Part shown: one piece after another, positions 8,225-38,295 of the stretch
How positions within the stretch are numbered: position 1 is the first letter of the stretch
How the letters are laid out: each line of letters opens with the position of its first letter
Virus record (IMG/VR): IMGVR_UViG_3300045286_000087
Span: 1-38,295 of that record
Direction: 5' to 3' (one strand)
From: a virus
DNA: 38,295 nt
Notes under the pieces: generated by a model
Databases searched by the model: none
What the model saw: the letters and a program-made list of their open reading frames with translations, nothing else
Told to the model about the DNA's origin: nothing
Made by a program: the position numbers and the translations under genes

Positions 8225-8248
8225 CAACAACCGCTGGGGGAGGAGATC

Positions 8249-8401
8249 ATGGACGACTTCGACGACGAAGGGTGGAAGGGCATGGAGCCGGGATCGCTCC
8301 GGCCGCTCGTGCTGATCGTGTTGCTGTTCTGGGTGCTGATCTTCGCGGCGGTGTACTTCGTCGCGCGCTACGTGCCGCCGAGCCTGCCGCATGTGGGTTA
8401 A
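8249..8401 (+). CDS. Small single-TM protein (50 aa)
   Basis: Starts MDDFDDEGWKGMEPG after a strong GGGGGAGGAG site. An acidic N-terminus is followed by one hydrophobic span (about residues 18-40, LRPLVLIVLLFWVLIFAAVY). It overlaps gmhA by 11 bases, so it is co-translated with the heptose cassette. A role as membrane anchor is possible but not shown. Confidence 0.7.
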   Translation: MDDFDDEGWKGMEPGSLRPLVLIVLLFWVLIFAAVYFVARYVPPSLPHVG

Positions 8402-8939
8402 GAACCTCGACCGGCACCTCGACATCGTCGCGCGGCTCGTCGGGCACCTCGAGCACGCCTTCGACCCGGCCGCGACGATGCTTGCGGAGGCGCTCGTCGC
8501 CGACCAGAAGATCCTCTTCTGTGGCAACGGCGGCAGCGCGTGCGATGCGATGCACCTCGCGGCCGAGCTCGTCGTACGGTTCAGGAACGACCGCAAGGCG
8601 TACGCCGCGATCGCGCTCTCGGCGGATTCGGCGATCGTGACCGCGGGCGGCAACGACTACGGGTACGACCGCGTCTTCGCTCGCCAGGTGGAAGCCTACG
8701 GCCGTCCGAACGACGTGCTCGTGGCGCTGTCGACGAGCGGCAAGAGCCGCAACGTCCTCGAGGCGATCCTGACGGCCAGGCACCGCGGCCTCAAGACGAT
8801 CGGCCTCTCCGGGAAGCGGGCGATGGGCTGCGACGTCGACATCCAGGTCCCGAGCGAGGAGACGGCGCGCATTCAGGAGGCGCACATCCTGATCGGGCAC
8901 CTCCTGATCGAGGAACTCGAGGAGCGACTTCCGTCGTGA
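8391..8939 (+). CDS. gmhA: GmhA, sedoheptulose-7-phosphate isomerase (182 aa)
   Basis: First enzyme of heptose synthesis: converts D-sedoheptulose-7-phosphate, drawn from the host pentose phosphate pathway, to D-glycero-D-manno-heptose-7-phosphate. Full-length SIS-fold protein with CGNGGSACDAMHLAAEL (residues 44-60), the phosphate-binding STSGKS at 114-119, RIQEAHILIGH (160-170) and GNDYGYDRVFARQVE near 87-101. The catalytic Glu (E59) and His (H170), equivalent to Glu65 and His180 of E. coli GmhA, are both present. Length matches cellular enzymes (about 190). It opens an overlapping cassette with hldA, hldC and gmhB. A related SIS protein of other specificity is possible, but the neighbours make GmhA very likely. 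Confidence 0.93.
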   Translation: MWVKNLDRHLDIVARLVGHLEHAFDPAATMLAEALVADQKILFCGNGGSACDAMHLAAELVVRFRNDRKAYAAIALSADSAIVTAGGNDYGYDRVFARQVEAYGRPNDVLVALSTSGKSRNVLEAILTARHRGLKTIGLSGKRAMGCDVDIQVPSEETARIQEAHILIGHLLIEELEERLPS

Positions 8940-9799
8940 GGCCCGAGGACGTACAACATCCGATCCGTACCGGCGAGACCGTAGTGCTCGAGGGTCCGGT
9001 CGTGGTAGGTGGGAGGGTGCCAGCTGTGAAAGCGCGCGGCCTGTTGCGGTTACTGGGGATGGAGGAGAAGGACATGGACCCGTACGACGTGAACGAACTC
9101 GCGAGAACCGAGGACCCGATCGAGCACGAGCCGCAGCTGCCGCCGCACACGGGCCGGCCGGGCGAGTCGGTGGAGGACTTCGAGCGGCGCCGCGTCGCGA
9201 GCGTGCCGGCGAAGGCGCTCGACGTGCGGGACCACGGCGCGGTCGGTGACAACGCCTTTCGGCGCGACCTCCCGGTGCGCGTGGTCGTCGACGAGGCGTT
9301 GCAGCGGGCGGTCGGGCCGGTGCGCGAGGAGATGGCGACGCTACGCCAGGCGATCGAGGAGCAGAACCGCACGCTCAAGACGATCGACGCTCCGCTCGAG
9401 GCGATCGCCGACAGCCACGAGCGGGCGGCGACGAGCTTCGAGGCGCTTCGGCACGACATCGACTCGATCAGCACACGCCTTGCGGGCGTCGAGGGAGTGA
9501 TCGACACGGCAGGGCTCATGAAGGCGCACGGCGAGTCCGCGCGCCTTCTGCAGGACATCTCGCGCGAGGTCCGCGAGCAGCTGAAGGTTACGCGCGACAG
9601 CCTCGTCGAGATCGTGCGCGTGCTGTCGAAGATCAACGCCGACGCGATCGAGGCGACGAAGAGGGCGCAGGACAAGATCAGCCAGGGCCCGCGGGAGGTG
9701 GTCGTGATCGGTGCCGAGGGGAAGGATCTCGCCGAACTCACCGCGGCCGACCGGCGCAAGCTCCTGCGTCGTCTGCAGTCGAAGAGGCGCAAGCGGTGA
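8936..9799 (+). CDS. Long coiled-coil protein inside the heptose cassette (287 aa)
   Basis: No known family. The N-terminus (about 1-45) is strand-like (ETVVLEGPVVVGGRV). Then comes an acidic linker, and residues 115-265 form long charged helices with heptad-like Leu/Ile spacing (AVGPVREEMATLRQAIEEQ, LLQDISREVREQLKV). The end is very basic (RRLQSKRRKR). It starts at GTG 8936 (GTGA). An alternative start at ATG 9074 has a better ribosome binding site, GGAGGAGAAG, and would give 242 residues. Both ends overlap heptose genes, so it is made with them. It could scaffold the enzymes or serve as a virion substrate. Both are guesses. Confidence 0.72.
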   Translation: MRPEDVQHPIRTGETVVLEGPVVVGGRVPAVKARGLLRLLGMEEKDMDPYDVNELARTEDPIEHEPQLPPHTGRPGESVEDFERRRVASVPAKALDVRDHGAVGDNAFRRDLPVRVVVDEALQRAVGPVREEMATLRQAIEEQNRTLKTIDAPLEAIADSHERAATSFEALRHDIDSISTRLAGVEGVIDTAGLMKAHGESARLLQDISREVREQLKVTRDSLVEIVRVLSKINADAIEATKRAQDKISQGPREVVVIGAEGKDLAELTAADRRKLLRRLQSKRRKR

Positions 9800-10617
9800 G
9801 CCTGAAGCGTCTGATCGAGCGCTGGCAGGGGAAGACCGTCTTCGTGTTCGGCGACCCGATGTACGACGTGTACCACTGGGGCCGCGTCGATCGCGTGTCG
9901 CCGGAGGCCCCGGTGCCGGTGCTCGTCGAGGAGGCCGTCGAGACGCGACCAGGCGGCGCGTACAACGTCGCTCAGAACCTCGCGATGCTCGGCTGTCGGG
10001 TGACGCGGAAGTTCCCGCCGGAGCCGTGGACGGTGAAGCGTCGGTTCATGTGCGGCCGGCACCAGCTGCTACGCGTCGACAAGGACGCCGAGGCCGTGTG
10101 CCGGAGTCTCTCGGTCGAGGAGTGCGGGCGCTTCGACGCGATGGTTGTCAGCGACTACGGCAAGGGCTGGGTCGACGCGGGCGCCTGCTACGTGCTCGAG
10201 CAGGCGGCGCGCGACAACGCGGCGCCGGTCGTGGTCGACCCGAAGGACCCCGACTGGCGCAAGTACCGGTTCGCGTCCGTGATCTGTCCGAACCGCAAGG
10301 AGTGGGAGGCGGCGCTCTACGTGCCCGACTGCGCGATCCTCGAGAAGCGCGGCGAAGAGGGCATCAACATCCGGACCGGAGGTATCCTCGGCCATGTCGA
10401 AACAGTTCCGGCAGTCGCGCGGCACGTCTACGACGTCACGGGAGCGGGCGACACCGTCGTCGCTGTTGTTGCGGCCTCTCTCGCTGCGGGTGGCGATCTC
10501 AGAAGTGCTGCGAGCCTCGCAGTACTCGCAGCAGGCCATGTGGTCGGTGAGGTCGGGACTACCGCCATTGACGCAGCTACCCTATCCCGGCTCGTCGACG
10601 AAGGAGGCGCGCGATGA
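9796..10617 (+). CDS. hldA: HldA-type D,D-heptose-7-phosphate kinase, compact (273 aa)
   Basis: PfkB-family kinase matching the N-terminal domain of HldE (RfaE domain I): phosphorylates heptose-7-phosphate at C1 to the beta-1,7-bisphosphate. Seen in order: VFGDPMYDVYHWGRVDRVSP (residues 17-36), APVPV, RPGGAYNVAQNLAMLG (51-66), VVSDYGKG (117-124), VVVDPKDPDW (145-154), CPNRKEWEA and the catalytic DVTGAGDTVVA (213-223, base D219). About 45 residues shorter than the E. coli domain, with losses after residue 70 and around 175, so a compact version. Starts at GTG 9796 in a GTGA overlap. The family choice (PfkB, not the GHMP HddA) points to ADP- rather than GDP-heptose. Confidence 0.88.
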   Translation: MSLKRLIERWQGKTVFVFGDPMYDVYHWGRVDRVSPEAPVPVLVEEAVETRPGGAYNVAQNLAMLGCRVTRKFPPEPWTVKRRFMCGRHQLLRVDKDAEAVCRSLSVEECGRFDAMVVSDYGKGWVDAGACYVLEQAARDNAAPVVVDPKDPDWRKYRFASVICPNRKEWEAALYVPDCAILEKRGEEGINIRTGGILGHVETVPAVARHVYDVTGAGDTVVAVVAASLAAGGDLRSAASLAVLAAGHVVGEVGTTAIDAATLSRLVDEGGAR

Positions 10618-10820
10618 CGAAAGAGGAGATGCGGGCGCTGCTCGGTAAGGCGATGGATATCTTCGACAAGGAGGCGCCGGGAGCAACCATCGGCGTCGTC
10701 GTCATCCTGACCGACGGCAGTGCCTACGAGATGTGCACGAACCTCAAAACGGAGTTCTTGGCCGAGGCGTGTCAGCAAGCGGCGAACCGCGCCAGGAGCA
10801 GCGCTCCGCAGCCGTCATGA
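10614..10820 (+). CDS. Small unknown protein between heptose genes (68 aa)
   Basis: Starts MTKEEMRALLGKAMD after AAGGAGG. Alpha/beta-looking with TIGVVVILTDGSAYE in the middle and a helical, Ser/Pro tail. Coupled by ATGA to both hldA and hldC. Could be a small partner of the enzymes. No family recognised. Confidence 0.65.
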   Translation: MTKEEMRALLGKAMDIFDKEAPGATIGVVVILTDGSAYEMCTNLKTEFLAEACQQAANRARSSAPQPS

Positions 10821-11221
10821 AGATCGGGTTCTGCAACGGGTGCTTCGACGTCTTCCACGCGGGGCACCGGTATTTCCTCGAGAAGGCGCGCGAGCATTGC
10901 GACTACCTGATCGTCGCGATCAACAGCGACGAATCGGTGACAAGGCTCAAGGGCGACGGGCGTCCGAAGTGGGTCTGGGAGAGGCGGTCGGACGAGGTCA
11001 TGGAGACCGGCCTCGTCGACGCGGTGATCCCCTTCGAGGGCCTCGAGCACTGGCTGATCGGGCAGATCAACCCCGACGTCGTGATCAGGGGCGCCGAGTA
11101 CCGCGACGCCGACGTGGCGCACGACCGAAGCCTCCCGGGCCGGCCGCCGTACGAGCGGGTGTACATTGACCGCATCCCCGGGTTCTCGACGACTGAGGAG
11201 ATCGCACGATGCCAGGACTGA
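10817..11221 (+). CDS. hldC: HldC-type heptose-1-phosphate adenylyltransferase (134 aa)
   Basis: Cytidylyltransferase-fold nucleotidyltransferase matching RfaE domain II: transfers AMP from ATP to heptose-1-phosphate, giving ADP-heptose. The HxGH nucleotide-binding motif is in GCFDVFHAGHRYFLEKAR (residues 8-25; H14, H17), followed by VAINSDESVTRLKGDGRP (33-50), INPDVVIRGAEY (84-95) and GFSTTEEI (122-129), all as in HldE. Length fits a stand-alone HldC. Here kinase and transferase are separate genes, as in HldA/HldC bacteria, not fused as in E. coli. Starts at ATG 10817 with an ATGA overlap. Confidence 0.9.
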   Translation: MKIGFCNGCFDVFHAGHRYFLEKAREHCDYLIVAINSDESVTRLKGDGRPKWVWERRSDEVMETGLVDAVIPFEGLEHWLIGQINPDVVIRGAEYRDADVAHDRSLPGRPPYERVYIDRIPGFSTTEEIARCQD

Positions 11222-11706
11222 AGGCCGCGTTCCTCGACCGCGACGGCACGCTGATCGAGAACAAGGGCTTCGTGAACTCCGTCGGCGATCTCCTGCGCTG
11301 CGGGTACATGGAAGGCGCGATCGAGGCGTGCGGCCGGCTGACGCACGCGGGCTACGAGCTTGTCCTCGTGACGAACCAGGGCGGCGTCGGGATGGGCCAC
11401 CTCACGGTCGACATGCACGCCGCGATCATGGGCGAGTTCCGGGCGCACCTCCGTCGGATGGGGGTCTCACTGACGAGTATGTACGCGTGCATACATCGTC
11501 CCGACGAGGGCTGTCAGTGCCGCAAACCCGCGCCGGGCATGCTGTTTCGGGCGGCGAGAGAACTCGGGATCGACCTCTCGAAGTCGATCATGATCGGCGA
11601 CCGCGAGGAGGATCGGATCGCGGGACTCGCGGCGCGGTGCGCCTTCAGTTGGAAGCTCCCCGACGGCGGCTGGCCGGCGCTTGACCTTTCTCCGGCGCTC
11701 GTCTAG
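11209..11706 (+). CDS. gmhB: GmhB, heptose-1,7-bisphosphate 7-phosphatase (165 aa)
   Basis: HAD-family phosphatase that removes the 7-phosphate between the kinase and adenylyltransferase steps. The nucleophile and acid Asp are in FLDRDGTL (D10, D12), with TNQGGVGMG (55-63), the zinc loop with C94, H96, C102 and C104 (HRPDEGCQCRKPAPGML), and IGDREEDRIAG (129-139). The CxCRKPxPGM and zinc cysteines are typical of GmhB rather than generic HAD or histidinol-phosphatases. Somewhat shorter than E. coli GmhB (191). Overlaps hldC by 13 bases. It completes a four-enzyme path to ADP-D,D-heptose. The epimerase HldD is not encoded anywhere in the genome. Confidence 0.92.
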   Translation: MPGLKAAFLDRDGTLIENKGFVNSVGDLLRCGYMEGAIEACGRLTHAGYELVLVTNQGGVGMGHLTVDMHAAIMGEFRAHLRRMGVSLTSMYACIHRPDEGCQCRKPAPGMLFRAARELGIDLSKSIMIGDREEDRIAGLAARCAFSWKLPDGGWPALDLSPALV

Positions 11707-19900: not shown

Positions 19901-19922
19901 AGGTGGCTCCGCGGAGTCACCT
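19901..19922 (+). promoter_or_regulatory. Hairpin over the capsid ribosome binding site
   Basis: AGGTGGCTC-CGCG-GAGTCACCT: 9 base pairs (one G-U) and a CGCG loop, ending one base before ATG 19924. The only Shine-Dalgarno-like GGAG (19913-19916) lies in its loop and 3' arm. As RNA it could hide the site and tune coat synthesis. As DNA it is a near-perfect 22-bp palindrome. Confidence 0.6.
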
Positions 19923-19923
19923 C

Positions 19924-20913
19924 ATGGCAGGCCAGGTCTGGGCGGTTTCCTCTCTCGGCGGCTACTTCTACAGCCGGCAGCTGTCGAACGTGATGCGCGC
20001 GGCGGTACAGCCGCTCGTCAAGTTCCGGCAGTTCGCGGATGTCCACGACATCTCGCAGCAGGGCAAGAAGAAGGGCGACACCTTCACGTGGGACGTGTTC
20101 TCGGACGTCGCGACCGCAGGCGGCATCCTGACGGAAACGAACACGATGCCCGAGACGAACTTCACGATCGTCCAGGGCACGCTGACCGTCACCGAGGGTG
20201 GCAACTCGATCCCCTACTCGGCGAAGCTCGACAACCTGTCGAAGTTCCCGGTCGAGGACATCATCAAGAAGGTCCTCAAGAACGACGCGGTCAAGTTCTT
20301 CGATCGCCTCGCGTGGGGGCAGTTCAACCAGACGCTTCTCCGCGCGATCCCGGTCGGTGGCAACAGCGCGAACGCGATCGTCCTGTACACGAACGGGACC
20401 GTCACCGGCACGAACAACATCGCCTACTCGAACGCGCACGCGAAGGCGATCTGCGACGCGATGAAGGAGCGCAACATCCCGGCGTACATCGCCGACGACT
20501 ACTACGCGCTCGGCTGGCCAACGACCTTCCGCACGCTCAAGAACGCGCTCGAGGCGATCCACCAGTACTCGGACACCGGCTTCAACCTGATCATGAACGC
20601 CGAGATCGGGCGGTACGAGAACACCCGGTACATCGAGCAGACGAACGTCGCGAAGGGCATCGGCACCACGGGCGTCTCGACCGCGAACGGCGGCGACATG
20701 GTCGCGTGGGTCAACGGCATGTCCGACTGGATCTTCTTCTTCGGCAACGACACCGTCGCCGAGGCGGTCGTGGTCCCGGAGGAGATGCGCGGCAAGATCC
20801 CGACCGACTACGGCCGGTCGAAGGGCATCGCGTGGTACTACCTCGGAGGCTTCGGCATCGTCCACACGCTCGCGACGAACGCGCGCATCGTGAAGTGGGA
20901 CAGCCAGGCGTAG
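19924..20913 (+). CDS. Major capsid protein (329 aa)
   Basis: Coat protein, by position after scaffold and before virion proteins. It begins MAGQVWAVSSLGGYFYS, with LVKFRQFADVHDISQQGKK and GDTFTWDVFSDVATAGG near the start, strand-rich TIVQGTLTVTEGGNSIPY, and a helical KFPVEDIIKKVLKNDAVKFF segment resembling the spine region of HK97-fold coats. Length is suitable for a small-headed podovirus. ATG 19924 is preferred over GTG 19903, because it has GGAG upstream and starts with a typical coat N-terminus. Two hairpins follow the gene. Confidence 0.88.
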   Translation: MAGQVWAVSSLGGYFYSRQLSNVMRAAVQPLVKFRQFADVHDISQQGKKKGDTFTWDVFSDVATAGGILTETNTMPETNFTIVQGTLTVTEGGNSIPYSAKLDNLSKFPVEDIIKKVLKNDAVKFFDRLAWGQFNQTLLRAIPVGGNSANAIVLYTNGTVTGTNNIAYSNAHAKAICDAMKERNIPAYIADDYYALGWPTTFRTLKNALEAIHQYSDTGFNLIMNAEIGRYENTRYIEQTNVAKGIGTTGVSTANGGDMVAWVNGMSDWIFFFGNDTVAEAVVVPEEMRGKIPTDYGRSKGIAWYYLGGFGIVHTLATNARIVKWDSQA

Positions 20914-21035: not shown

Positions 21036-21563
21036 ATGAGCACCGGCACGCAGAAAAACATGGCGTACGACCATCCGTCGTACACCACGCGTCAGTCCTT
21101 CGCCTACGGTCCGAACGCGGCCGGCTCGGCGGGTGTGACGAGCAAGTTCGTCACGCACGCGGCCCTCCTCCTCTTCGGCCTCAACTACTACGTCGTCACC
21201 GCGGGCACGTCGACGTACACGTTCACCCAGGGCGGCACCTCGACCGTCGCGGTCGCGGCCACCCAGGCGTCGGTGATCGTGATCACGAACACGGCGACCC
21301 CGGGCGCGACGGTGGCGCTCGCGACGACCACGTACGGCCCGTACACGGTGGCCGGCAACTTCCTCACCTCCGGCACCCTGACGAACCAGGTCGGCCAGAA
21401 CGGGCAGTTCCAGCTGAACACGAACACGGGCACCGCGGGCATCGGCGGCGTCCTCGTGCCGGCCGGCTCCCAGGTGTACGTCGTCAACGGCACGGATGCG
21501 ACGGCGGTCGTGGACTACACGATCGACTACCAGATCCAGCCGCTGGCGAGCGTCCTCGCCTAA
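21036..21563 (+). CDS. Ser/Thr-rich beta-structured virion protein (175 aa)
   Basis: Starts MSTGTQKNMAYDHPS with CAGGAG upstream. From residue 50 it is built of Thr/Ser/Val/Ala/Gly strands (YVVTAGTSTYTFTQGG, STVAVAATQASVIVIT) with no Cys. This resembles capsid decoration or fibre-like proteins. The high Ser/Thr content also makes it a candidate acceptor if the phage glycosylates its virion. Function inferred from position after the coat gene. Confidence 0.65.
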   Translation: MSTGTQKNMAYDHPSYTTRQSFAYGPNAAGSAGVTSKFVTHAALLLFGLNYYVVTAGTSTYTFTQGGTSTVAVAATQASVIVITNTATPGATVALATTTYGPYTVAGNFLTSGTLTNQVGQNGQFQLNTNTGTAGIGGVLVPAGSQVYVVNGTDATAVVDYTIDYQIQPLASVLA

Positions 21564-22906: not shown

Positions 22907-23305
22907 ATGGCCCAGGTACAGAAGAAGGCGAAGGTCGTCCCGGATCGGTTCCTGCCGGACGGGACGCGGCTCTTCAACCCGACGAAGCCGCACGGCGTCG
23001 TCTACTACGACGCGGCCTACGGCGAGTGCCCGACGCGCTTCGTTCAGGAGCTCGACGGCCGCGAGGTCCACTACGCGGCCGACGGCCGTCCGGTCGGCTA
23101 CGAGCCGGGCAAGCCTCTGCCGCCTCCGGTCGACGAGGTGCAGGCCGAGAACGAGTCGCTGAAGAGTCGCATCAAGGACCTCGAGGGGCAGAACACGCGC
23201 ATCCTCGCGCTCCTCGAGAAGCTCACCGGAGAACCGAAGCCGGCCGCGCAGCCGGTGCCTGCCGCGGAGGGGCGCCCCGGTGGAGCCGCTCCCGGCAAGA
23301 AGTGA
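22907..23305 (+). CDS. Virion-region protein with C-terminal coiled coil (132 aa)
   Basis: Starts MAQVQKKAKVVPDRFL with GAGGAG upstream. The first 80 residues look globular (GVVYYDAAYGECPTRFVQEL). Residues 80-108 form a heptad-rich helix (VDEVQAENESLKSRIKDLEG), followed by a Pro/Ala tail. Trimeric coiled coil is possible. Its end overlaps the next gene by 26 bases. Function unknown. Confidence 0.65.
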   Translation: MAQVQKKAKVVPDRFLPDGTRLFNPTKPHGVVYYDAAYGECPTRFVQELDGREVHYAADGRPVGYEPGKPLPPPVDEVQAENESLKSRIKDLEGQNTRILALLEKLTGEPKPAAQPVPAAEGRPGGAAPGKK

Positions 23306-23822
23306 GCCGCCGAGCCTCGTCGGTCCTCAACACCTAGCCGAGCTTGTCGCTGCGGCCCGGAGTGCTCCTCCGGGCTGTCTCGTCGAGGTCGGGGTCTACC
23401 AGGGTGGGTCCGCGTGGGCGCTGTACCAGGTCGCGCTCGAGCAGGGCCGCGACCTCTGGCTGTACGACACGTTCGAGGGGATTCCGTACGCCGACGAGGG
23501 CGACTCGCACAAGGCGGGCGACTTCGTGTACACGGACGTCGCGCAGCTGCGGCAGCTGATGCCGAAGGCGCGGATCATCAAGGGCGTGTTCCCGGAGTCC
23601 GCCGACCTTCGGATGGATCGGATCGCGCTCGCGCACCTCGACGTCGACCAGGGCCGCGCGTACCGCGAGGCGATCGGGTTCCTGCGGCCGAGAATGGTCG
23701 CGGGCGGGATCATGCGCTTCGACGACTCGCCGGTCATCCCGGCGGCTCGTCTCGCGTGCGAGAAGATGTTCGGAGCCGATCTGCGCCTGAGCGCGGAAGG
23801 CAAGCACTACGTCGTGATCTAG
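23280..23822 (+). CDS. TylF-like O-methyltransferase (180 aa)
   Basis: SAM-dependent methyltransferase resembling the macrocin-O-methyltransferase (TylF) family. The SAM site is in LVEVGVYQGGSAWALYQ (residues 35-51), the acidic loop is LYDTFEGIPYADEGD, and the metal-binding-type segment is HLDVDQGRAYREAIGFLRP, then GGIMRFDDSP. Shorter than TylF (about 250), mainly at the N-terminus. GTG 23280, with a GGAGGGGC upstream, is the only reasonable start. TylF-type enzymes methylate sugar hydroxyls, which fits the next gene, a methyltransferase-glycosyltransferase fusion. It may act on a phage-made glycan. Confidence 0.78.
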   Translation: MEPLPARSEPPSLVGPQHLAELVAAARSAPPGCLVEVGVYQGGSAWALYQVALEQGRDLWLYDTFEGIPYADEGDSHKAGDFVYTDVAQLRQLMPKARIIKGVFPESADLRMDRIALAHLDVDQGRAYREAIGFLRPRMVAGGIMRFDDSPVIPAARLACEKMFGADLRLSAEGKHYVVI

Positions 23823-23833
23823 GGGAGGAGCCT

Positions 23834-25588
23834 ATGGTCTGGAAGAAGGACGACCCGCAAGGGAACGAGGCCGGCAAGATCCGGTGGGAGATCGTGAAGT
23901 GGACCCGCGGGCGCGGACTCGACATCGGCGCGGGCCTGTACCGCACGTTCCCGCACTTCATCACGGTCGACAACAATATCGACGCGGTGCTCTTCGGGCA
24001 CCCGATGCCGCGGCCGGACATCCCGGTCGAGGACGGCGCGAAGCTCGATTGCGTCGCGTCGGCGAGCATGGACTTCGTATTCTCGAGCCACATGCTCGAG
24101 CACGTGGAGGAGGAGAACCTCGTCAAGTGTCTCAAGGAGTGGATGCGGGTGATCAAGCCGAAGGGCTACCTCGTCCTCTACCTCCCCGACGCGGACGAGT
24201 ATCCGAAGGTGGGCGAGCCGGGCGCGAACCCGGACCACAAGTGGAACGTCACGTACCTGCGGGTGTGCGATCTCATGAAGAAGACCGGGGTCGGCTGGGA
24301 CCTCGTCGACTTCCAGAAGCGCAACGCCGACAACGAGTACTCTCTGTACTTCGTGTTTCGCAAGGAGCACGAGGGGCACGCCTTCAGCTACGACGCGCCG
24401 CGGCCGGTCGGCAAGACGGTCGGCGTCGTGCGGTACGGGGCGTACGGTGACCTCATCCAGGCGGCGTCGGTGTGCGCGGCGCTGAAGCGCGAGGGGTGGC
24501 ACGTCACGCTCTACACCGCGAACCCGGGTTACGAGGTCATCCAGCACGACCCGAATATCGACGAGTTCTACATCCAGGACCGCGACCAGGTGCCGAACCC
24601 GGCCCTCGGCGAGTTCTGGGCGTACCACGCGAAGAAGTACGACCGCTGGATCAACCTGTCGGAGACGGTCGAGGGCGCGCTCCTGACGATGGCGGGCCCG
24701 GGCCGGATCGTCGACACGTACCCGCCGGCCGTGCGGCACCAGCTGTGCAACCGCAACTACCTCGAGTATCAGCACCTCGTCGCGGGCGTCGAGTACGACC
24801 CGGACGATCGCTCGATGAAGTTCTACCCGACCGAGCAGGAGAAGGAGTGGGCGAAGGCCGAGCGCAAGGCGTACGGGCAGTTCCTGATCGTCTGGGCGCT
24901 CTCGGGCTCGTCGGTGCACAAGCACTGGCCGCACCTCGACGCGGCCGTCTCCGGCCTCCTGATCGACTTCCCGGAGGTCGAGATCCTCTTCGTCGGCGGC
25001 AAGGACGGCGTCGTCCTCGAGCAGGGCTGGGAGAAGGCGGCGCGCGTGCATCGGCGCTCGGGCAAGTGGGACATCCGACAGACGCTGTCGTTCGTGCAGC
25101 TGGCCGACGTCGTGATCGGATCGGAGACGGGCGTGCTGAATGCAGTCGCGCACTCGGAGATGCCGAAGGTCGTGTTCCTGTCGCACTCGACGCAGGAGAA
25201 CCTGACGCGCGACTGGGAGAACACTCACTCGCTCGCGAGCGTCGGCACCGTCTGCAAGGGCCGAGGCAACGACGAGGCGCCGGCCTGTCACCAGCTGCAC
25301 CACGGCTGGGCGCGCTGCACCGAGGCTCCCGCGCCTCCGGACACCGAGCACCTCTACGAGCGCAAGGGCTCCGGCGTCGCGCAATGCATGTGGGACATCG
25401 GCGCGCAGGACGCCTACAAGGTGATCTGGCACGTCGTGCAGTGGCGCCTCGAGGAGTACGCGAAGCGGGCGGGCCTGCCGCCTCCGGGCGTGACGCACCT
25501 CACCGAGGAGCAGATGGCGGCGCTCCGTCAGACGCTGCCGGGGCACGTGGCGAGCCCGGAGCAGGCGATCGAAGCGCTCGAGGAGTAG
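23834..25588 (+). CDS. Fusion: class I methyltransferase + GT9 heptosyltransferase-like (584 aa)
   Basis: Residues 1-180 form a Methyltransf_11-type SAM domain: GLDIGAG (28-34), the acidic VDNNID, SSHMLEHVEEE (84-94) and KPKGYLVLYLPD. Residues 195-470 match the GT9 (ADP-heptose heptosyltransferase) fold: VGVVRYGAYGDLIQAAS (196-212) like the GDxL N-terminal motif, ALSGSSVHKHW (355-365) and the acceptor/donor motif VIGSETGVLNAVAH (427-440), equal to the DTGxxHxAAA of heptosyltransferases. The C-terminal part has four cysteines (474, 485, 495, 518). With the ADP-heptose cassette at 8391-11706 this is the likely transferase. GAGGAG precedes ATG 23834. Fused methylation would cap the sugar or modify the acceptor. 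Confidence 0.82.
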   Translation: MVWKKDDPQGNEAGKIRWEIVKWTRGRGLDIGAGLYRTFPHFITVDNNIDAVLFGHPMPRPDIPVEDGAKLDCVASASMDFVFSSHMLEHVEEENLVKCLKEWMRVIKPKGYLVLYLPDADEYPKVGEPGANPDHKWNVTYLRVCDLMKKTGVGWDLVDFQKRNADNEYSLYFVFRKEHEGHAFSYDAPRPVGKTVGVVRYGAYGDLIQAASVCAALKREGWHVTLYTANPGYEVIQHDPNIDEFYIQDRDQVPNPALGEFWAYHAKKYDRWINLSETVEGALLTMAGPGRIVDTYPPAVRHQLCNRNYLEYQHLVAGVEYDPDDRSMKFYPTEQEKEWAKAERKAYGQFLIVWALSGSSVHKHWPHLDAAVSGLLIDFPEVEILFVGGKDGVVLEQGWEKAARVHRRSGKWDIRQTLSFVQLADVVIGSETGVLNAVAHSEMPKVVFLSHSTQENLTRDWENTHSLASVGTVCKGRGNDEAPACHQLHHGWARCTEAPAPPDTEHLYERKGSGVAQCMWDIGAQDAYKVIWHVVQWRLEEYAKRAGLPPPGVTHLTEEQMAALRQTLPGHVASPEQAIEALEE

Positions 25589-25591
25589 ACG

Positions 25592-26593
25592 ATGGCACTC
25601 TCGGGGACGTGGGCCTTTACAGTCGCGCGCGACGACATCATCCGCCAGGGGATGATGAACCTCGGGCTCCTCGAGGAGGGGGAGCAGCCGACGGCGACCG
25701 AGATCGCGGACTGTTCCCGCGTCCTCAACATGATCGTCAAACAGCTGGCCGGCAACCTCGAGAAGTCCCCGGGCTTCAAGATGTACCAGCGGCAGCGAGG
25801 CGATCTCTTTCTCGGCTACACGAAGAGCGTCTATAACCTCGGGCCGACGGGCGACAATTGGGCGGCGTCGACGACCGGGCTCGTCTACCCGCAGTCGTTC
25901 AACCGCCAGACGCTGACCGCGGCGGCGGCCGGCGGGCAGCCGACCTTCGCGGTCGGCGTCGGCAATACCGCGAGTTTCAACGTCAACGACTTCTGCGGCG
26001 TCGTCGTCGGCGCCGACATCTTTTGGTCGACGGTGCTCTCCGTCAACCCGGGCGCGGGCACGGTCACGCTCAGCACGAACCTCTCGGGACCCGCCGCGAT
26101 CGGCGCCTACGCCTACAACTACACGCTGAAGGCGCAGCGGCCGATGAACATCAAGACGGCGCTCCTCCGTGACTCGAACGGCACGGACACGCCGCTCTCG
26201 CTGATGACCGTCGAGCAGTACGAGGCGCTTCCCACGAAGCAACAGCCGGGATTCGTGCAGGACCCGACCGCGTGGTACTACGAGCAGCAGCTGACGAACG
26301 GGCAGTTCTATATCGACTGTGTGGGGGCCCAGGACGTTACGAAGACGATCCATATCGTGTACCTCCGCGAGTCGATGGATCTCAACATCGGCACCGACAA
26401 CGCGGAGTTTCCGCAGGAGTACCTCCTGCACCTCTCGTGGACGCTGTCGCTGCAGATCTGCGGCATGTTCGACGCCGATTGGACGCCCGACCGGCAGGCG
26501 GCCTATAGCGTCGCGGTCACGCGCGCGGCCGAGGGTGCGGAGCCGGAGCGCTCGGCGGACTTCTTCCAGGTGGACGACCCGGACGGCTACTGA
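25592..26593 (+). CDS. P22 gp4-like tail adaptor / DNA stabilisation protein (333 aa)
   Basis: Starts MALSGTWAFTVARDDIIRQG and continues with a helical bundle (EGEQPTATEIADCSRVLNMI, KQLAGNLEKSPGFKMYQR), the pattern of gp4-type tail accessory factors that close the portal after packaging. The middle is strand-rich, with TVEQYEALPTKQQPGF near residue 210 and NIGTDNAEFPQEYL near 266. Its place directly before the gp10-like gene is the order of P22 (4-10). Length is larger than P22 gp4 (166), so an insert or a tail-tube-A-like relative is possible. Confidence 0.8.
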   Translation: MALSGTWAFTVARDDIIRQGMMNLGLLEEGEQPTATEIADCSRVLNMIVKQLAGNLEKSPGFKMYQRQRGDLFLGYTKSVYNLGPTGDNWAASTTGLVYPQSFNRQTLTAAAAGGQPTFAVGVGNTASFNVNDFCGVVVGADIFWSTVLSVNPGAGTVTLSTNLSGPAAIGAYAYNYTLKAQRPMNIKTALLRDSNGTDTPLSLMTVEQYEALPTKQQPGFVQDPTAWYYEQQLTNGQFYIDCVGAQDVTKTIHIVYLRESMDLNIGTDNAEFPQEYLLHLSWTLSLQICGMFDADWTPDRQAAYSVAVTRAAEGAEPERSADFFQVDDPDGY

Positions 26594-28047
26594 TGCGAAG
26601 CGTCCCCATGTTCGGCGCGGGCGTGTACGGCAAGAGTGCCGTCGTCACGCGTCAGCGTCGGGTCAATTGCTACTACGAGCTCCGACCCGACGGCGACAAG
26701 GGCCTGAAGGCGGTCATCTTCGGAACGCCCGGAGCGAAGCTCGCGACGGCGGTCGCGGGCGGCAACCCGATCCGCGGCATGCAGGGCACCGACACCGCAC
26801 TCTGGCTCGTGCAAGGGGCGCAGTTCAAGCAACAGATCCCGGGCTTCTCGACGAACTTCACGGCCGGCATCGGCACGTCCGCGGGTCCCGTCAGCATCGC
26901 CTCGAACCCGGGCGGCTCGCAGGTGGCGATCGTCGACGGTCAAAACGGCTGGGTCTACTCCCCGGGCGCGAACACCTTCGTCCCGATGCCGAGCCTGTCG
27001 TGGTTCGTGCCGGGGTCGCAGACGATCACGAACGTCGGCGGCTACTTCGTGGCGGAGATCGCGGGGACGAACGAGTTCGCGGTCTCCAACATCAACGACG
27101 CGACGACGGGCAGCGGGCTCTCGTTCGGCGCGGCCTCGGCGTACCCCGACATCGTGAAGGCGGTTGACCAGCTGTCGGGCAACCTCGTCGTCTTCTCTTC
27201 GACGCACATGGAGTTCTGGCAGAACATCAACGGGCCGCCGCCGGGGCAGCCGTTCGGACAGATCCAGTCGGCGACGAACCGGTGGGGCCTCGCGGCGGTC
27301 TTCTCGCGGGTGGCGATTGGCGACTCGCTGATGGCGCTGTGCCAGACGACCCAGGGCGTGCGGCGGGTCGTGCAGATCACCGGCTACGCGGCGCAGCCGA
27401 TCAGCGACGAGATCGACTGGATCATCAACCAGGACGGGTTCTATTACCAGGACGCGGTCGGCCTCTCCTACCAGAAGGACAAGCACCCCTTCTATCAGCT
27501 GACCTTCCCGACCATGAACCGGTCGTTCCTCTACGACCTCTCGACCGGGATCTGGGGCGAGGCGCAGACGGGGCTGACGGCGCAGTACGCGCAGCGTCAC
27601 ATCGGCCAGTACAGCACCTACTTCAACGGCCAGGGCATCGTTTCCGACTACTCGTCCTCGAACCTCTACACGATGTCGGACCTCCAATTCACCGACAACG
27701 GGTCGATCATCCCGCGCGAGATCGTCACGAAACACCAGTACAAGTCCGGGAACCGGTTCCGGGTGCCGGGCCTCTATCTCGACATGGAGACGGGCGTCGG
27801 GACCTCGGGCGGCGGCGCTGGCTCGAACCCGACGATCATGCTCGAGTGCTCGAAGGATAGCGGGCGCTCGTGGTTCCCGATCCGGTATCTGCCGCTCGGC
27901 GCGATCGCGGCCTACCCGACGCGGGTCGTGGCGCGGCGCTTCGGCCGCGGGCGCGTCTTCACGTGGCGCATCCGCTGCACCGATCCGGTAAAGTTCGTGC
28001 TGACCGACGGCGCGATCCGCGTCAAGGGACTCAAGGAGACCTTCTAG
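26593..28047 (+). CDS. P22 gp10-like tail protein (484 aa)
   Basis: Stabilises packaged DNA and joins the gp4-like ring to the tail needle or spike. Length equals P22 gp10 (about 472) and the fold pattern fits: repeated strand blades with GSQVAIVDGQNGWVYSPG, SGNLVVFSSTHMEFWQN (like gp10 STIEYF), ISDEIDWIINQDGF, FLYDLSTGIWGEAQTG, IPREIVTKHQYKSGNR and a C-terminal CSKDSGRSWF...WRIRCTDPVKFVLTD. The gene starts in a TGATG junction. The N-terminus reads MFGAGVYGKSAVVTRQRRVN, where gp10 relatives list their own genomic origin. Confidence 0.88.
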   Translation: MRSVPMFGAGVYGKSAVVTRQRRVNCYYELRPDGDKGLKAVIFGTPGAKLATAVAGGNPIRGMQGTDTALWLVQGAQFKQQIPGFSTNFTAGIGTSAGPVSIASNPGGSQVAIVDGQNGWVYSPGANTFVPMPSLSWFVPGSQTITNVGGYFVAEIAGTNEFAVSNINDATTGSGLSFGAASAYPDIVKAVDQLSGNLVVFSSTHMEFWQNINGPPPGQPFGQIQSATNRWGLAAVFSRVAIGDSLMALCQTTQGVRRVVQITGYAAQPISDEIDWIINQDGFYYQDAVGLSYQKDKHPFYQLTFPTMNRSFLYDLSTGIWGEAQTGLTAQYAQRHIGQYSTYFNGQGIVSDYSSSNLYTMSDLQFTDNGSIIPREIVTKHQYKSGNRFRVPGLYLDMETGVGTSGGGAGSNPTIMLECSKDSGRSWFPIRYLPLGAIAAYPTRVVARRFGRGRVFTWRIRCTDPVKFVLTDGAIRVKGLKETF

Positions 28048-28331: not shown

Positions 28332-29015
28332 ATGAAGCATTTTCAGTGGTTGGGCGACTTCAATCCGGTCCCGTTGCTGCACGAGATCACGCGGCAGCCG
28401 GATCTGTGGCAGGCGGACACGTACCTCCGGGACTACCCGCAGGGGCCCTTCGGTGACACGGAGACGATCTTCTTGCGGTTCCCGCCGGCCAGCGTGACCG
28501 AACTCGAGCGCGGCGAGCGGGACCAGCACGAGTGCGTGTGGATGGAGGGCTCGCTGTTCCTGCCGTCGGCGCGGGCGATGATCTTCGCGCTGATGGGGAT
28601 GGTGCAGGGCGAGCGTCTCGGCCGGGTGATGATCAACAAGCTCAAGATGGGCGGGCGGATCTACCCGCACGCGGACACTCCGGCGCACGCCGACTACTGG
28701 CAGCGCTATCACGCGGTGCTGCAGTCGTCGAAGGGCTGCAACTTCCGCTGTGGCGAGGAGACGATCCACATGGAGGCCGGCAACCTCTACTGGTTCGACA
28801 ACGCGCTCGAGCACGAGGTCGTCAACAACGGTGTCGACGACCGGATCCACATGATCGTCGACATCCGGTTGAGCCGGCCGGCGGTGCGCGGCCTCACGCC
28901 GCAGCGCATGACGCCCGACGATCAGTCGGAGCCGAAGCACGCGGCCGACGGCGATCCGCAGGTGGAGGAGGCGCTCGAGGAACTCGAGCTTGCGAATCCG
29001 GGCGGGTCCGCATGA
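28332..29015 (+). CDS. Aspartyl/asparaginyl beta-hydroxylase-like dioxygenase (227 aa)
   Basis: Fe(II)/2-oxoglutarate dioxygenase of the Asp/Asn beta-hydroxylase type. The iron ligands are visible: YPHAD (H113, D115) and the distal H161 in LEHEVVNNG, with an Arg at 171 (DDRIHMIVDIRL) for 2-oxoglutarate. All three metal ligands are kept, so it should be active. The C-terminal 45 residues are acidic and disordered. Phage members of this family lie near tail genes. Substrate could be an Asp/Asn residue of a virion or host protein. Coupled by ATGA to the GNAT gene. Confidence 0.82.
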   Translation: MKHFQWLGDFNPVPLLHEITRQPDLWQADTYLRDYPQGPFGDTETIFLRFPPASVTELERGERDQHECVWMEGSLFLPSARAMIFALMGMVQGERLGRVMINKLKMGGRIYPHADTPAHADYWQRYHAVLQSSKGCNFRCGEETIHMEAGNLYWFDNALEHEVVNNGVDDRIHMIVDIRLSRPAVRGLTPQRMTPDDQSEPKHAADGDPQVEEALEELELANPGGSA

Positions 29016-29467
29016 TCACGTGCCAGGTTGAGCCGTTCCCGCCTTTCCTCGAGGAGGTGAAGCCGATGCTTCCCCTCCACTGGGAGGAGCTCGCGCTCAA
29101 CAAGGACCGGGTCCCGCTCGACCCGCAGTACGACGTGTACCTCGACCGCAACGCGCGCGGCGAGGTGCTCGTCGTGACGGTGCGGGAGGACGGCGTCCTC
29201 GTGGGCTACTTCGTCGGGTTCGTGGCGCCGGGCCTCCATTACCGGACGTGCCTCACCCTGACGATGGACATCTTCTGGGTCCACCCCGATCATCGGGGAG
29301 CCGGGGCCGGGATCGCGCTCTTCAAGGCGGTCGAGGCGGAGGCGCGGAGGCGCGGGATACAGCGTATGTTCGTCGGGTCGAAGCTCCACAAGGACGCTTC
29401 GTGGTTGTTCGAGCGGCTCGGCTATGAGGAAGTCGAGCGGTACTTCAGCCTCTGGCTCGGAGGGTAG
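29012..29467 (+). CDS. GNAT-family N-acetyltransferase (151 aa)
   Basis: Acyl-CoA-dependent acetyltransferase. The motif A signature is in FWVHPDHRGAGAGIALFKAV (residues 88-107), R95-x-G-A-G-A-G being the pyrophosphate-binding loop, followed by FVGSKLHKDASWLFERLGYE (120-139) as motif B. Substrate unknown: amines of sugars, proteins or small molecules. It lies with the dioxygenase between tail-adaptor and ejection genes, so a virion-modifying role is possible. ATG 29012 overlaps the dioxygenase stop. Confidence 0.85.
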   Translation: MITCQVEPFPPFLEEVKPMLPLHWEELALNKDRVPLDPQYDVYLDRNARGEVLVVTVREDGVLVGYFVGFVAPGLHYRTCLTLTMDIFWVHPDHRGAGAGIALFKAVEAEARRRGIQRMFVGSKLHKDASWLFERLGYEEVERYFSLWLGG

Positions 29468-31669: not shown

Positions 31670-33730
31670 ATGGACGTCCAACTCCCCGACGGCACGATCT
31701 TGCAGGGCATCCCGGACGGGACGACCCGGTCGGAGATCGCCGACAAGCTCAAGGCTTCCGGGCGGCCGGTGCCGGCTGAATGGCTGCGCGAGCCGTCTAT
31801 GGCCGAGAAGGCGGTCAAGAAGGTCGTCGAGCACCAGAAGGGCGAGGTCGAGACTGCCGCCGCGCTCGCTACGGGCGCCGTGGCGACGCCGATCGCCGGC
31901 CTCGCTGGCATCGCTCAGGGGGTCAAGAACATCACCGCACCGGTCTCCGGCGGCCTCTGGGAGGCCGGCATGCCGGCGGCCGACCGGGTGCGGCAGGTGC
32001 AGGAGGGGCTCACCTACCAGCCGAAGACCGAGGCCGGGAAGCGCTACACGGGCGCGATCGGCGAGGCCCTCTCCTACGTCGGCGACAAGCCGGGCGGGGC
32101 GGTCGGGGAGTTGGCGACCGATGCCGCGACGAAGCTCGGGGCCTCTCCCGAGGTGGCCGGCGCGATCGGGGCAACCGCGAACACCGCGACCCAGGCCGCG
32201 GCCCAGCTATTGCTCGCCAAAGGGGCGGGCGTGGCCGGCAAGGCGGTCGCGGCCGCTGTGAAGCCTGCGGCCAGGGGGGCGGGCGCGGCGGCCCAGACGG
32301 CCGCGCAGACGGCGGAGACCTATGCCCGGGGCCTCGGGATCGACTGGGCGGCGGCGCCTCAGACGTTCAAGGACGCGCTGACGAACATCGCGCAACAGGG
32401 CACCGACCTCTCAAAGCTACCGCCCGAGGCGGTCAAGCGCGTGGCGCGGGCGGAGCGCCAGGGCGTCACCCTCACCCGCGGCCAGGCGACCCGGGACCTC
32501 GGCGACCTTCAGTCGGAGGAGAACCTCCGGCTCGCCGCGGCGGGCAAGCCGCTCCGGGAGCGGATGGCCGGCCAGGACACGGCGCTTCACGAGCGGCTCG
32601 GCGCGATCCGCCAGGAGGTCGCTCCCGGCTCGAAGGTGGGCTCGACCGCGGACGTCGGGACGGTGCAGCTGGCCGCGAGGCGGAAGCTACAGGCGGTCAA
32701 GGCCGCCGCGAACGACGCGTACACCGAGGCCCGCAAGCAAGGGGCCTTCATGACGCCCGTAGACCCCGCGCCGCTCCTGAAGTGGCTCGAGGGATCTCCG
32801 GCGCGCACCCGCAACGTCGGCTGGGTGGCGCGGGCGGTCGAGGACTACGCGAAGCCGACCGGCGGCAAGAAGATCACGATCCAGGACATGGAGGACCTCC
32901 GGTCCGAGGTCTCGGCCGCGGCCGGGGAGAGCGGGCGGAAGGGGTTCTTCGCCGGCCAGGCGAAGGCGGTGATCGACGGCATCCTCGACCGCGCCGACTC
33001 GAACGTGTACCAGGCCGCGCGCGGCAAGTGGAAGGCGTACAAGGACGAGTTCTCGGCGCAGAAGTCGGTGCGCGACCTCACCTCCGAGCTCGCCGGCACG
33101 ACGACCCGCCGCATCGCGCTCGAGGACACGCTAAAGCGCGTCATCAACGGCCCGACCGAATCCCTCGCCGAGATCCGCAAGTCGCTCACGACCGGCGGGA
33201 CGAAGCGTACGCAGCAGCTGGGACGGAAGGCATGGGCTGATCTGCAGGCCGGGGTCATCGAGCACCTCCGGGAGATCGCGGCGGGCCGGAGGCGCGTGCC
33301 GGGCGAGAATCAGCAGCTGCACTTCAACGCCGCGTTCCTCGACGAGTTCGAGAAGCTCAACCAGTCCGGCAAGCTCGACGTGCTCTTCGGCGAGAAGGTC
33401 GCGGCCAAGATGCGCGACTTCGCCGACACGGTCCGCGACACCCGCACGACGCCGCAGCAGCGCATCGTCGGGCCGTCGACCGCGAACAAGTTCGTCAAGC
33501 TCATGGAGGACGTCGGCGGGTTCGTGCTGAAGCTCCCGGGCATCAAACAGGTCAAGGAGGCCGTCACCGAGACGCGCAACGTGCGGAAGGCGATGGAGAC
33601 CCCGGTTTCCGAGAAGGTGAAGCCGCCGCGGACGATCAGCGCGCGCGAGCGAAAACTGCGCCAGGCGGCGAAGCCGGCGGCGGGCGCCGCGGTGACGACG
33701 GGCGCGCAGACGTACCAGGGGGACCAGTGA
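31670..33730 (+). CDS. Large ejection protein, gp16-like (686 aa)
   Basis: Third ejection-type protein. The N-terminus MDVQLPDGTILQGIPDGTTR followed by SEIADKLKASG is a widespread small module at the start of large internal phage proteins. Ala/Gly-rich hydrophobic stretches follow (about residues 60-90 and 170-215), suited to membrane insertion, and then a long helical part to the end. No transglycosylase or peptidase motif is visible. The gene begins right after the previous stop and overlaps the ATP-grasp gene by 4 bases. Confidence 0.75.
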   Translation: MDVQLPDGTILQGIPDGTTRSEIADKLKASGRPVPAEWLREPSMAEKAVKKVVEHQKGEVETAAALATGAVATPIAGLAGIAQGVKNITAPVSGGLWEAGMPAADRVRQVQEGLTYQPKTEAGKRYTGAIGEALSYVGDKPGGAVGELATDAATKLGASPEVAGAIGATANTATQAAAQLLLAKGAGVAGKAVAAAVKPAARGAGAAAQTAAQTAETYARGLGIDWAAAPQTFKDALTNIAQQGTDLSKLPPEAVKRVARAERQGVTLTRGQATRDLGDLQSEENLRLAAAGKPLRERMAGQDTALHERLGAIRQEVAPGSKVGSTADVGTVQLAARRKLQAVKAAANDAYTEARKQGAFMTPVDPAPLLKWLEGSPARTRNVGWVARAVEDYAKPTGGKKITIQDMEDLRSEVSAAAGESGRKGFFAGQAKAVIDGILDRADSNVYQAARGKWKAYKDEFSAQKSVRDLTSELAGTTTRRIALEDTLKRVINGPTESLAEIRKSLTTGGTKRTQQLGRKAWADLQAGVIEHLREIAAGRRRVPGENQQLHFNAAFLDEFEKLNQSGKLDVLFGEKVAAKMRDFADTVRDTRTTPQQRIVGPSTANKFVKLMEDVGGFVLKLPGIKQVKEAVTETRNVRKAMETPVSEKVKPPRTISARERKLRQAAKPAAGAAVTTGAQTYQGDQ

Positions 33731-35061
33731 AGATCCTCCTGATCGAGCACGAGGACGCGGGCTGCGGGCTCGCCTTCGCGCTCCTCTGTCTCAAGGCCGG
33801 CCACGAGGTGCGGTACTACCTGCGGAAGGAGAACAACCAGGCGATCGGCGACGGATTCAAGGGCCTCGTGAAGGTCGCGAACTGGGTCACGTCGGCGCCG
33901 TGGGCGGATCTGATCGTGTGCACGGGCAACGACGAGTACATCCCGAAGCTCGAGGCCCTCCGCAAGCGCGGCGTCCGGGTGTTCGCGCCGAGCGTCGCCT
34001 CGACCCGGCTCGAGATCGACCGCAAGGCCGGGATGGCGTTCCTGAAGAAGGCCGGGATCGACGTGCCGCCGTACCAGACGTTCCGGACCCTCGCCGAGGC
34101 CGAGGCGTACGTCCGCAAGAAGCCGGAGCGCTACGTTTTCAAGACGCTCGGCAGCGAGGAGGACAAGAGCCTCTCGTACGTCGGCAAGTCACCGGCCGAC
34201 ATGGTCGCGCGTCTGCAGCGCTGGCAACGCCTCGGGCTCAACCCGAAGGGCGAGGTCATGCTGCAGGAGTTCGTCAAGGGCGAGGAGTTCGGCGTCTCGC
34301 GCTGGCTCGGGCGCGAGGGCTTCGTTGGCAAGTGGAACGAGCACTTCGAGCACAAGAAGCTCATGTCCGGGAACTGCGGCCCGAACTGCGGCGAGGCGGG
34401 CACCGTCCAGAAGTACGTTGACGACTCCCTCCTCGCCGATACTGTGCTTGCGCCGCTCGAGAAGGCCCTCGTCGAGATCGGGCACCTCGGGGACGTCGCG
34501 GTCAATTGCATCGTCGCCGAGGACGGCACTCCCTACCCGCTCGAGTTCACGTGCCGCTGGGGCTGGCCGCCGATGAATATCATGCTCGCCACCCACAAGG
34601 GCGACCCGGCGCAGTGGATGTTCGACGCGTGCGAGGGCAAGGACACGCTGCAGGTATCGACCGACGTCGCGTGTGGCATCGTGATCGGGCAGCCCGACTA
34701 TCCCTACTCCCACGCCGAGACCGAGGAGGACCGCAAGAAGCTCCTCGACATCCCGATCTACGGGCCGACCTCGGGCAACCGGCGGTACGTGTTCCCGCAG
34801 TCGGTGAAAATGGCGAAGCTCCCGACGATGAACGGCGACCAGGTCGTCGAGAAAACCATGTGGGCGACGTGCGGCGACTACGTCGCGGTCGTCACCGGCA
34901 CCGGTAGCACGGTCAAGAAGGCGTGCAAGCGGGCCTACAAGGTGATCGACGAGATTGAGATCCCGGACATGCTGTATCGTGACGACATCGGCGAGAAGCT
35001 CGAGGAGGAGCTTCCAAAGCTGCAGGCGAAGGGGTTCGCGACCGAGTTCCGGTACGGGTGA
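33727..35061 (+). CDS. ATP-grasp ligase, PurD-like (444 aa)
   Basis: Related to phosphoribosylamine-glycine ligase (PurD) and other carboxylate-amine ligases: the N-terminal Rossmann domain (MKILLIEHEDAGCGLAF), an ATP-grasp middle with ERYVFKTLGSEED, MLQEFVKGEEFGVSRWLG and GPNCGEAGTV (cf. the PurD GPNTGGMG), and PLEFTCRWGWPP, the counterpart of the metal-binding EFNARFGDPE. The second metal ligand is changed (TCRWG instead of NARFG), so substrate or chemistry may differ. There are no other purine genes. It sits between ejection proteins and the tailspike, hinting at modification of a virion component or amino-acyl transfer. GTG start overlaps the previous gene. Confidence 0.78.
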   Translation: MKILLIEHEDAGCGLAFALLCLKAGHEVRYYLRKENNQAIGDGFKGLVKVANWVTSAPWADLIVCTGNDEYIPKLEALRKRGVRVFAPSVASTRLEIDRKAGMAFLKKAGIDVPPYQTFRTLAEAEAYVRKKPERYVFKTLGSEEDKSLSYVGKSPADMVARLQRWQRLGLNPKGEVMLQEFVKGEEFGVSRWLGREGFVGKWNEHFEHKKLMSGNCGPNCGEAGTVQKYVDDSLLADTVLAPLEKALVEIGHLGDVAVNCIVAEDGTPYPLEFTCRWGWPPMNIMLATHKGDPAQWMFDACEGKDTLQVSTDVACGIVIGQPDYPYSHAETEEDRKKLLDIPIYGPTSGNRRYVFPQSVKMAKLPTMNGDQVVEKTMWATCGDYVAVVTGTGSTVKKACKRAYKVIDEIEIPDMLYRDDIGEKLEEELPKLQAKGFATEFRYG

Positions 35062-37870: not shown

Positions 37871-38244
37871 GCGAAGAGGATGTCTCCGGACCCCTCAAAC
37901 TGTTGTCGCTGGCGTTCGGACTCTCCCCACGGCAGCAGGGGCTTATCCTCCGGATTCTGTGGGTGACAATCGTGTCAACGCACATTCTGTGGGCCTGCGG
38001 TCTCCTCGCCTTCATGGGACTCAACTCGCCTTGGGCCAAGGCCGAGGACGTCTCGCAGCTGATCCACAACGTGGCGCTCGCGACCAAGCTCACCCTGAGC
38101 CAAGAGCTACGGGACCAGTACGCCATCGTGTGCCACACCCAGGACGTGGCCGCTCGAGCGGCTCTCCTTCGGTATATTGAATCGCTGCAGGTTGAGTATC
38201 AGAATCTGACCGGGCAGAGATACCCCGAGCCCGCGTGCCGGTAA
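37867..38244 (+). CDS. Membrane protein of the lysis block (125 aa)
   Basis: Starts at GTG 37867 (GTGA overlap): VSEEDVSGPLKLLSLAF. One or two membrane spans at about residues 25-51 (LILRILWVTIVSTHILWACG), followed by a helical C-terminal domain (VSQLIHNVALATKL, LLRYIESLQVEYQNL). Topology and position fit a holin-like or inner-membrane spanin-type component, but no family is recognised. The last 76 bases recur at the start of the window because of the terminal overlap. Confidence 0.75.
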   Translation: MSEEDVSGPLKLLSLAFGLSPRQQGLILRILWVTIVSTHILWACGLLAFMGLNSPWAKAEDVSQLIHNVALATKLTLSQELRDQYAIVCHTQDVAARAALLRYIESLQVEYQNLTGQRYPEPACR

Positions 38245-38295
38245 ATCCGGAAAAGGAGGAGCGATGGTTACGGTTTTGGTGCTGATTGCGTCCCA
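38169..38295. repeat. Terminal direct repeat, right copy (assembly overlap)
   Basis: Identical to 1-127. It closes the contig to a 38,168-bp circle. See the left copy. Confidence 0.93.
38264..38295 (+). CDS. Start of the 43-aa membrane protein (duplicate copy)
   Basis: ATG at 38264 equals ATG 96. Only the first ten codons are present here before the window ends. Count once on the closed circle. Confidence 0.9.
   Translation, partial: MVTVLVLIAS

Follow-up and report, generated by a model that had tools for sequence, protein, structure and literature searches.

A methyltransferase-GT9 heptosyltransferase fusion in the virion gene block of an uncultured phage family, with linked ADP-heptose genes

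A phage record of 38,295 bases, analysed in full and referred to here as the window, encodes within its virion gene block a fusion of a SAM methyltransferase with a heptosyltransferase domain of family GT9 (MT-GT). The enzyme has two domains with recognisable folds and conserved catalytic residues, and its gene is linked to heptose genes and lies near the capsid gene. Tentatively, and with somewhat less than even confidence, we propose that a widespread, uncultured phage family makes ADP-D,D-heptose and coats its capsid with methylated heptose, using an enzyme that derives from GT9 independently of the TibC/AAH family. The gene and its immediate surroundings are as follows.

23280 to 23822, plus strand: TylF-type O-methyltransferase gene, directly 5' of MT-GT (PF05711, 7.0e-14)
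23823 to 23830, plus strand: Shine-Dalgarno-like GGGAGGAG ahead of the MT-GT ATG
23834 to 25588, plus strand: MT-GT gene, SAM methyltransferase and GT9 heptosyltransferase fusion, 584 aa (open reading frame, alignment A1, model m185611885350)
25592 to 28047, plus strand: two head-completion genes directly downstream of MT-GT (25592 to 26593; 26593 to 28047, head closure Hc3, phrog_578, 8.1e-73)

The reading frame is intact, running through 584 codons from an ATG at 23834 to a TAG at 25588, and is separated by 11 nt from the end of the TylF-type methyltransferase gene and by 3 nt from the first head-completion gene. It is not a chance open reading frame, since at least 89 homologous stretches exist in IMG/VR and dN/dS is 0.05-0.30 in six informative pairs; by this comparison MT-GT is under purifying selection. 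The 80 IMG/VR relatives that were compared are 41-71% identical, and no close relative was found in 50,697 deposited phages. The bacterial viruses that carry MT-GT form a large group that is still uncultured. The terminal 127 bases of the window copy the initial 127 (1-127 and 38169-38295), so the assembly is self-closing. Relatives have repeats of 113, 123 or 127 bp; these lengths resemble assembler word sizes and therefore probably reflect a closed circle, not a biological repeat.

Within the protein, the domains and candidate catalytic elements are placed as follows.

23834 to 24373, plus strand: class I SAM methyltransferase domain, N-terminal, residues 1-180 (Pfam Methyltransf_11; 3dli)
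24401 to 25471, plus strand: GT9 (GT-B) heptosyltransferase domain, C-terminal, residues 190-546 (structural matches; PF01075 in 11/35 homologues)
24449 to 24451, plus strand: Asp206 of GDLIQ (35/35; aligns with the GD motif of E. coli WaaF/WaaC)
24920 to 24922, plus strand: Lys363, candidate donor-phosphate lysine (35/35; aligns with the WaaF Lys)
25124 to 25132, plus strand: Glu431-Thr-Gly, counterpart of the WaaC/WaaF DTG/DSG motif (Glu431 in 35/35; E. coli alignment)
25253 to 25387, plus strand: four-cysteine insert C474, C485, C495 and C518, candidate metal site before the last helix (35/35)

Methyltransf_11 (Pfam) matches residues 65-115 of the window protein (6.8e-9), PF08241 is found in 35/35 homologues, and the motif I glycines and motif II acidic residue of class I SAM methyltransferases are likewise present in all 35. 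In a comparison of structure models, residues 3-177 align with 3dli at Z 16.2, the top score among SAM methyltransferases. For the C-terminal half, PF01075 (GT9) falls below threshold on the window protein alone but gives hits in 11 of 35 homologues (best 2.5e-10); the MT-GT of L138 reaches 27.0 bits at a cut-off of 22, and 9 of 16 GT domains are recognised by the NCBIfam model for LPS heptosyltransferase I (best 1.3e-7). The assignment is settled by the AlphaFold2 model (m185611885350, built from 35 sequences; pLDDT 88, pTM 0.84), according to which the C-terminal half has a GT9 fold. Residues ~190-540 match 3tov (Z 24.0), WaaF (1psw, Z 22.7), WaaC (Z 20.0) and TibC (Z 19.7), the first three scores marking a GT-B fold of WaaC/WaaF type across 265-291 residues. 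The two halves are not fused in every phage: L068-L077 and L080 encode them in two genes with about 600 nt between, and L081 in two neighbouring reading frames, which confirms the two-domain reading. The original prediction of a methyltransferase joined to a GT9-type domain is thus borne out by the Methyltransf_11 match, by the C-terminal domain modelling as GT9 and by the split-gene relatives; the elements it named (LDIGAG, SSHMLEH, GDLIQ, SETGVLNAVAH and the cysteines at 474, 485, 495 and 518) all lie where it had placed them.

Invariant positions across the 35/35 aligned relatives are G26, G32, G34 and D46 in the methyltransferase half and D206, K363, E431 and N436 in the GT half. Asp206 corresponds, through the GD motif, to WaaC Asp13, the catalytic base of that enzyme, and N436 occupies the place of H in WaaC DTGLSH. 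MT-GT resembles WaaF and WaaC (CAZy GT9, PF01075) in its GT-B fold and its GD, Lys and [DE]TG motifs (Z 22.7 and 20.0), and some cellular GT9s share its four-cysteine insert. In contrast to WaaF and WaaC, MT-GT carries a fused N-terminal methyltransferase, is phage-encoded beside a capsid gene, has E431 and N436 in place of D and H, and is only 12-14% identical to them over the structural alignment.

The position of the gene points to the particle as its target.

19903 to 20913, plus strand: major capsid protein gene (phrog_1357, 3.5e-14)
21036 to 21563, plus strand: small Ser/Thr-rich (24%) protein, candidate decoration protein and acceptor (composition, post-capsid position; alignment A4, 21 relatives)

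The major capsid protein of the window is 58-93% identical in most MT-GT phages. In the main clade, with its phrog_1357-type head, MT-GT is flanked by the major capsid gene on one side and head-completion genes on the other; in an unrelated lineage with an HK97 protease-capsid fusion (phrog_617; L138, L139, L121), it directly follows the capsid gene. The capsid is therefore the common denominator of two unrelated lineages. The small protein contains 20-27% Ser/Thr in most relatives, and its gene comes after that of the capsid in the majority of the main clade. No such gene lies between the capsid gene and MT-GT in the HK97-type phages, which favours the capsid protein itself as acceptor. MT-GT also follows the capsid gene in prophages, found in Paraburkholderia rhynchosiae WSM 3937, Aromatoleum anaerobium LuFRes1 and a Polaromonas MAG. 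In the A. anaerobium prophage (L136:7100-9097), the capsid gene is split by a group I intron (RF00028, 62.3 bits, 8115-8399).

Other genes of glycan type occur around MT-GT. TylF-type methyltransferase genes are also nearby in G019, G034 and L134, and in L134 (3367-6058) such a gene precedes a tandem MT-GT pair whose second copy reaches the contig end. Between the capsid gene and MT-GT, an Armatimonadetes MAG (L137) encodes a 499-aa fusion of an MptE-like domain (PF01973) with a methyltransferase, and L131 has a sequence that reads as GT2-like. The window virion block further contains Asp/Asn beta-hydroxylase-like (28332-29012), GNAT acetyltransferase (29012-29464) and PurD-like ATP-grasp (33727-35058) genes, which are syntenic in several relatives and possibly serve further virion modification.

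A capsid-block site in two unrelated lineages and in prophages would be unexpected for an exclusion gene, and the neighbours of MT-GT are small virion genes, not LPS genes. These observations make it unlikely that MT-GT alters the host LPS core by placing heptose or methyl-heptose on lipid A-core and so blocks re-infection or prepares release, even though seroconverting phages, which alter the O-antigen, provide a parallel, the nearest characterised enzymes (WaaF and WaaC) are LPS heptosyltransferases, and the four-cysteine motif is common to cellular GT9s.

Modification of the virion by heptose would call for a donor, for which the window holds a candidate pathway.

8391 to 8939, plus strand: gmhA, sedoheptulose-7-phosphate isomerase (TIGR00441, 2.3e-56)
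9796 to 10617, plus strand: hldA, heptose-7-phosphate kinase, short form (TIGR02198, 1.4e-60)
10817 to 11221, plus strand: hldC, heptose-1-phosphate adenylyltransferase (TIGR02199, 2.1e-28)
11209 to 11706, plus strand: gmhB, heptose-1,7-bisphosphate 7-phosphatase (NF006506, 7.4e-38)

Bacteria normally use the sugar nucleotide ADP-heptose to build LPS. All four genes of the ADP-D,D-heptose pathway are present in the window; their scores lie under the NCBIfam curated equivalog cut-offs, so the pathway is called putatively active. The HldD epimerase of the ADP-L,D-heptose pathway, correctly predicted to be missing, was found in 0/21 MT-GT records. The donor is thus probably ADP-D,D-heptose, as for TibC/AAH.

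The predicted co-occurrence with heptose genes also holds among relatives. At least one ADP-heptose gene is present in 16 of 24 MT-GT records that were read from end to end and had been chosen without regard to heptose genes, and in 6 of the 7 with terminal repeats, the exception (G034) belonging to another head lineage. Most of the eight records without a heptose gene are truncated or lack terminal repeats, and some MT-GT phages encode just one or two of the four steps. As background, the 50,697 deposited phages include 11 records with a gmhA-like and 55 with an hldC-like gene. Counted in reverse, MT-GT is present in the records of 19 of the 80 gmhA loci from IMG/VR phages. A search of IMG/VR with the hldA of the window alone gave no match; one with a gmhA alignment did. 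PF01075 is weak on gmhA-bearing records because this model is insensitive to the MT-GT family. The cassette is ordered gmhA-hldA-hldC-gmhB or, elsewhere in the genome, hldA-gmhA-hldC-gmhB; kinase and adenylyltransferase share one open frame in G073 (an HldE-like fusion), and in L269 the TGA that ends MT-GT and the ATG that begins gmhA overlap as ATGA. Co-occurring records are kin, so the counts overstate independence. On the gmhA tree the MT-GT label changes about six times, but only one of these changes is required by the branches with the best support. The diversity of arrangements and the ATGA overlap are nevertheless hard to explain without a functional tie. The same two features, together with the strength of the co-occurrence, make it quite unlikely that the GT9 domain modifies a protein with another sugar nucleotide while the cassette serves LPS upkeep or immune or defence signalling, an explanation to which the eight records without heptose genes and the replacement of the DTGLSH histidine by N436 lend some weight.

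The heptose cassette is absent from the P. rhynchosiae, A. anaerobium and Polaromonas MAG prophages. Each of these genomes has single gmhA and hldC matches on contigs other than that of the prophage, so the betaproteobacterial host could supply the donor. An Acidobacteriaceae MAG contig (L130) carries a phage similar to that of the window (capsid 91%, MT-GT 65%), and the MAG genome to which it belongs (G036) contains no hldC and no strong GT9 match. On the weak basis of MAG binning, the hosts of window-type phages may include bacteria whose LPS has no heptose.

The four cysteines had been taken to place MT-GT with the TibC/AAH protein heptosyltransferases. They are conserved in 35/35 aligned relatives, with a spacing of C-x10-C-x9-C-x22-C in the window protein and C-x2-C-x9-C-x10-C in divergent members; most members have an eight-residue insert between the first and second cysteine. 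In TibC, iron is held by Cys 339, 342, 358 and 370 (PMC4358343), spaced C-x2-C-x15-C-x11-C. Cellular GT9 proteins in the host genomes of this set have a four-cysteine motif at the corresponding position, among them CSPCFARVCPLGHTRC and CAPCFARECPLGHTRC (at least nine examples, a lower bound and not a rate), and by alignment the motif is absent from E. coli WaaF, WaaC and WaaU; it therefore marks a subset of GT9s, not protein heptosyltransferases. The Aah/TibC model (TIGR04414) matches 0/18 MT-GT records, even at E 10. The cysteines were consequently rejected as proof of a TibC/AAH enzyme, and the label of TibC-like protein heptosyltransferase is not established by sequence. What the motif backs is membership of GT9 and possibly a metal site; it does not indicate specificity for protein. 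By family-model and domain tests, MT-GT is a GT9 member outside the TibC/AAH family. The original prediction thus stands as regards the GT9 fold, the conserved cysteines and the heptose genes, the three points on which it had offered itself for refutation, and as regards the lack of HldD; its step from the cysteines to the TibC/AAH group is not supported.

Given as a special case of virion heptosylation, with which its probability overlaps, a true TibC/AAH-type enzyme would have an iron finger, an oligomeric ring and a beta-structured Ser/Thr-rich acceptor. TibC shares with MT-GT a GT9-like fold, aligning at Z 19.7, and four cysteines before the last helix (PMC4358343), and a small Ser/Thr-rich protein is encoded after the capsid gene. 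WaaF and 3tov are structurally closer than TibC, however, the cysteines occur in other GT9s and differ in spacing, TIGR04414 has no match at E 10, and neither an autotransporter nor the TibC-style N-terminal beta-barrel accompanies MT-GT; a Rossmann-type methyltransferase occupies the place of the barrel. Such an enzyme is very unlikely. Phage DNA, or a host protein such as RNA polymerase, is a highly improbable target, as MT-GT sits in the head gene block and a non-exhaustive look recognised no nucleobase-modifying partner nearby, although DNA-decorating phage glycosyltransferases are known (as cited in PMC12619734).

On balance, it is probable that MT-GT heptosylates and methylates the capsid, or a protein bound to it, late in infection. 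Under this reading, MT-GT would be a virion-modifying enzyme produced at that stage. The products of the heptose genes would synthesise the donor, and the GT9 domain would transfer heptose with the assistance of Asp206. The fused SAM methyltransferase would then methylate that sugar or the neighbouring protein, a step in which a separate TylF-type methyltransferase may often aid, leaving a methylated, capped heptose on the particle surface. Such a coat might serve particle stability, shielding, attachment or protection from defence. Gene position suggests the capsid as the site of modification; late expression as well as donor, acceptor, order of steps and effect on the phage are what we infer. 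Characterised GT9 relatives act mostly on LPS, which counts against the virion reading, as do the lack of heptose genes in the terminally complete G034 and the missing TIGR04414 match.

Parallels exist among phages. In the mycobacteriophage Corndog, the capsid block includes genes for an O-methyltransferase and a glycosyltransferase (PMC4351075); glycosylation of mycobacteriophage capsids has been reported (as cited in PMC12619734). Corndog-type phages and MT-GT phages alike combine these two activities in the virion block with the capsid as suspected or reported acceptor. By analogy MT-GT may work like such a protein glycosylation module and like a heptosyltransferase. The Corndog-type genes are separate, however, and belong to phages whose hosts have a mycobacterial envelope, and neither a GT9 fusion nor an ADP-heptose cassette is described for them. 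Single heptosyltransferase or HldE-like genes are borne by a huge phage (PMC10747093), and the search of deposited phages found heptose-type genes in cyanophages. These also represent phage-encoded heptose transfer or donor synthesis, but are read as LPS-related or metabolic and are not linked to a capsid-adjacent MT-GT.

No report of phage protein heptosylation or of a virion-linked ADP-heptose pathway was found in the literature searched, outside which most subscription papers lie. If correct, our proposal would describe the first phage system, within that literature, to contain both a donor pathway and a transferase for protein heptosylation. Prophage copies in two isolates (WSM 3937 and LuFRes1) make heptosylation testable. 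As ADP-heptose normally serves LPS, virus assembly would be tied to that pool, and the recurrence of MT-GT next to capsid genes that are not related to each other suggests strong selection on the surface chemistry of the capsid in these phages.
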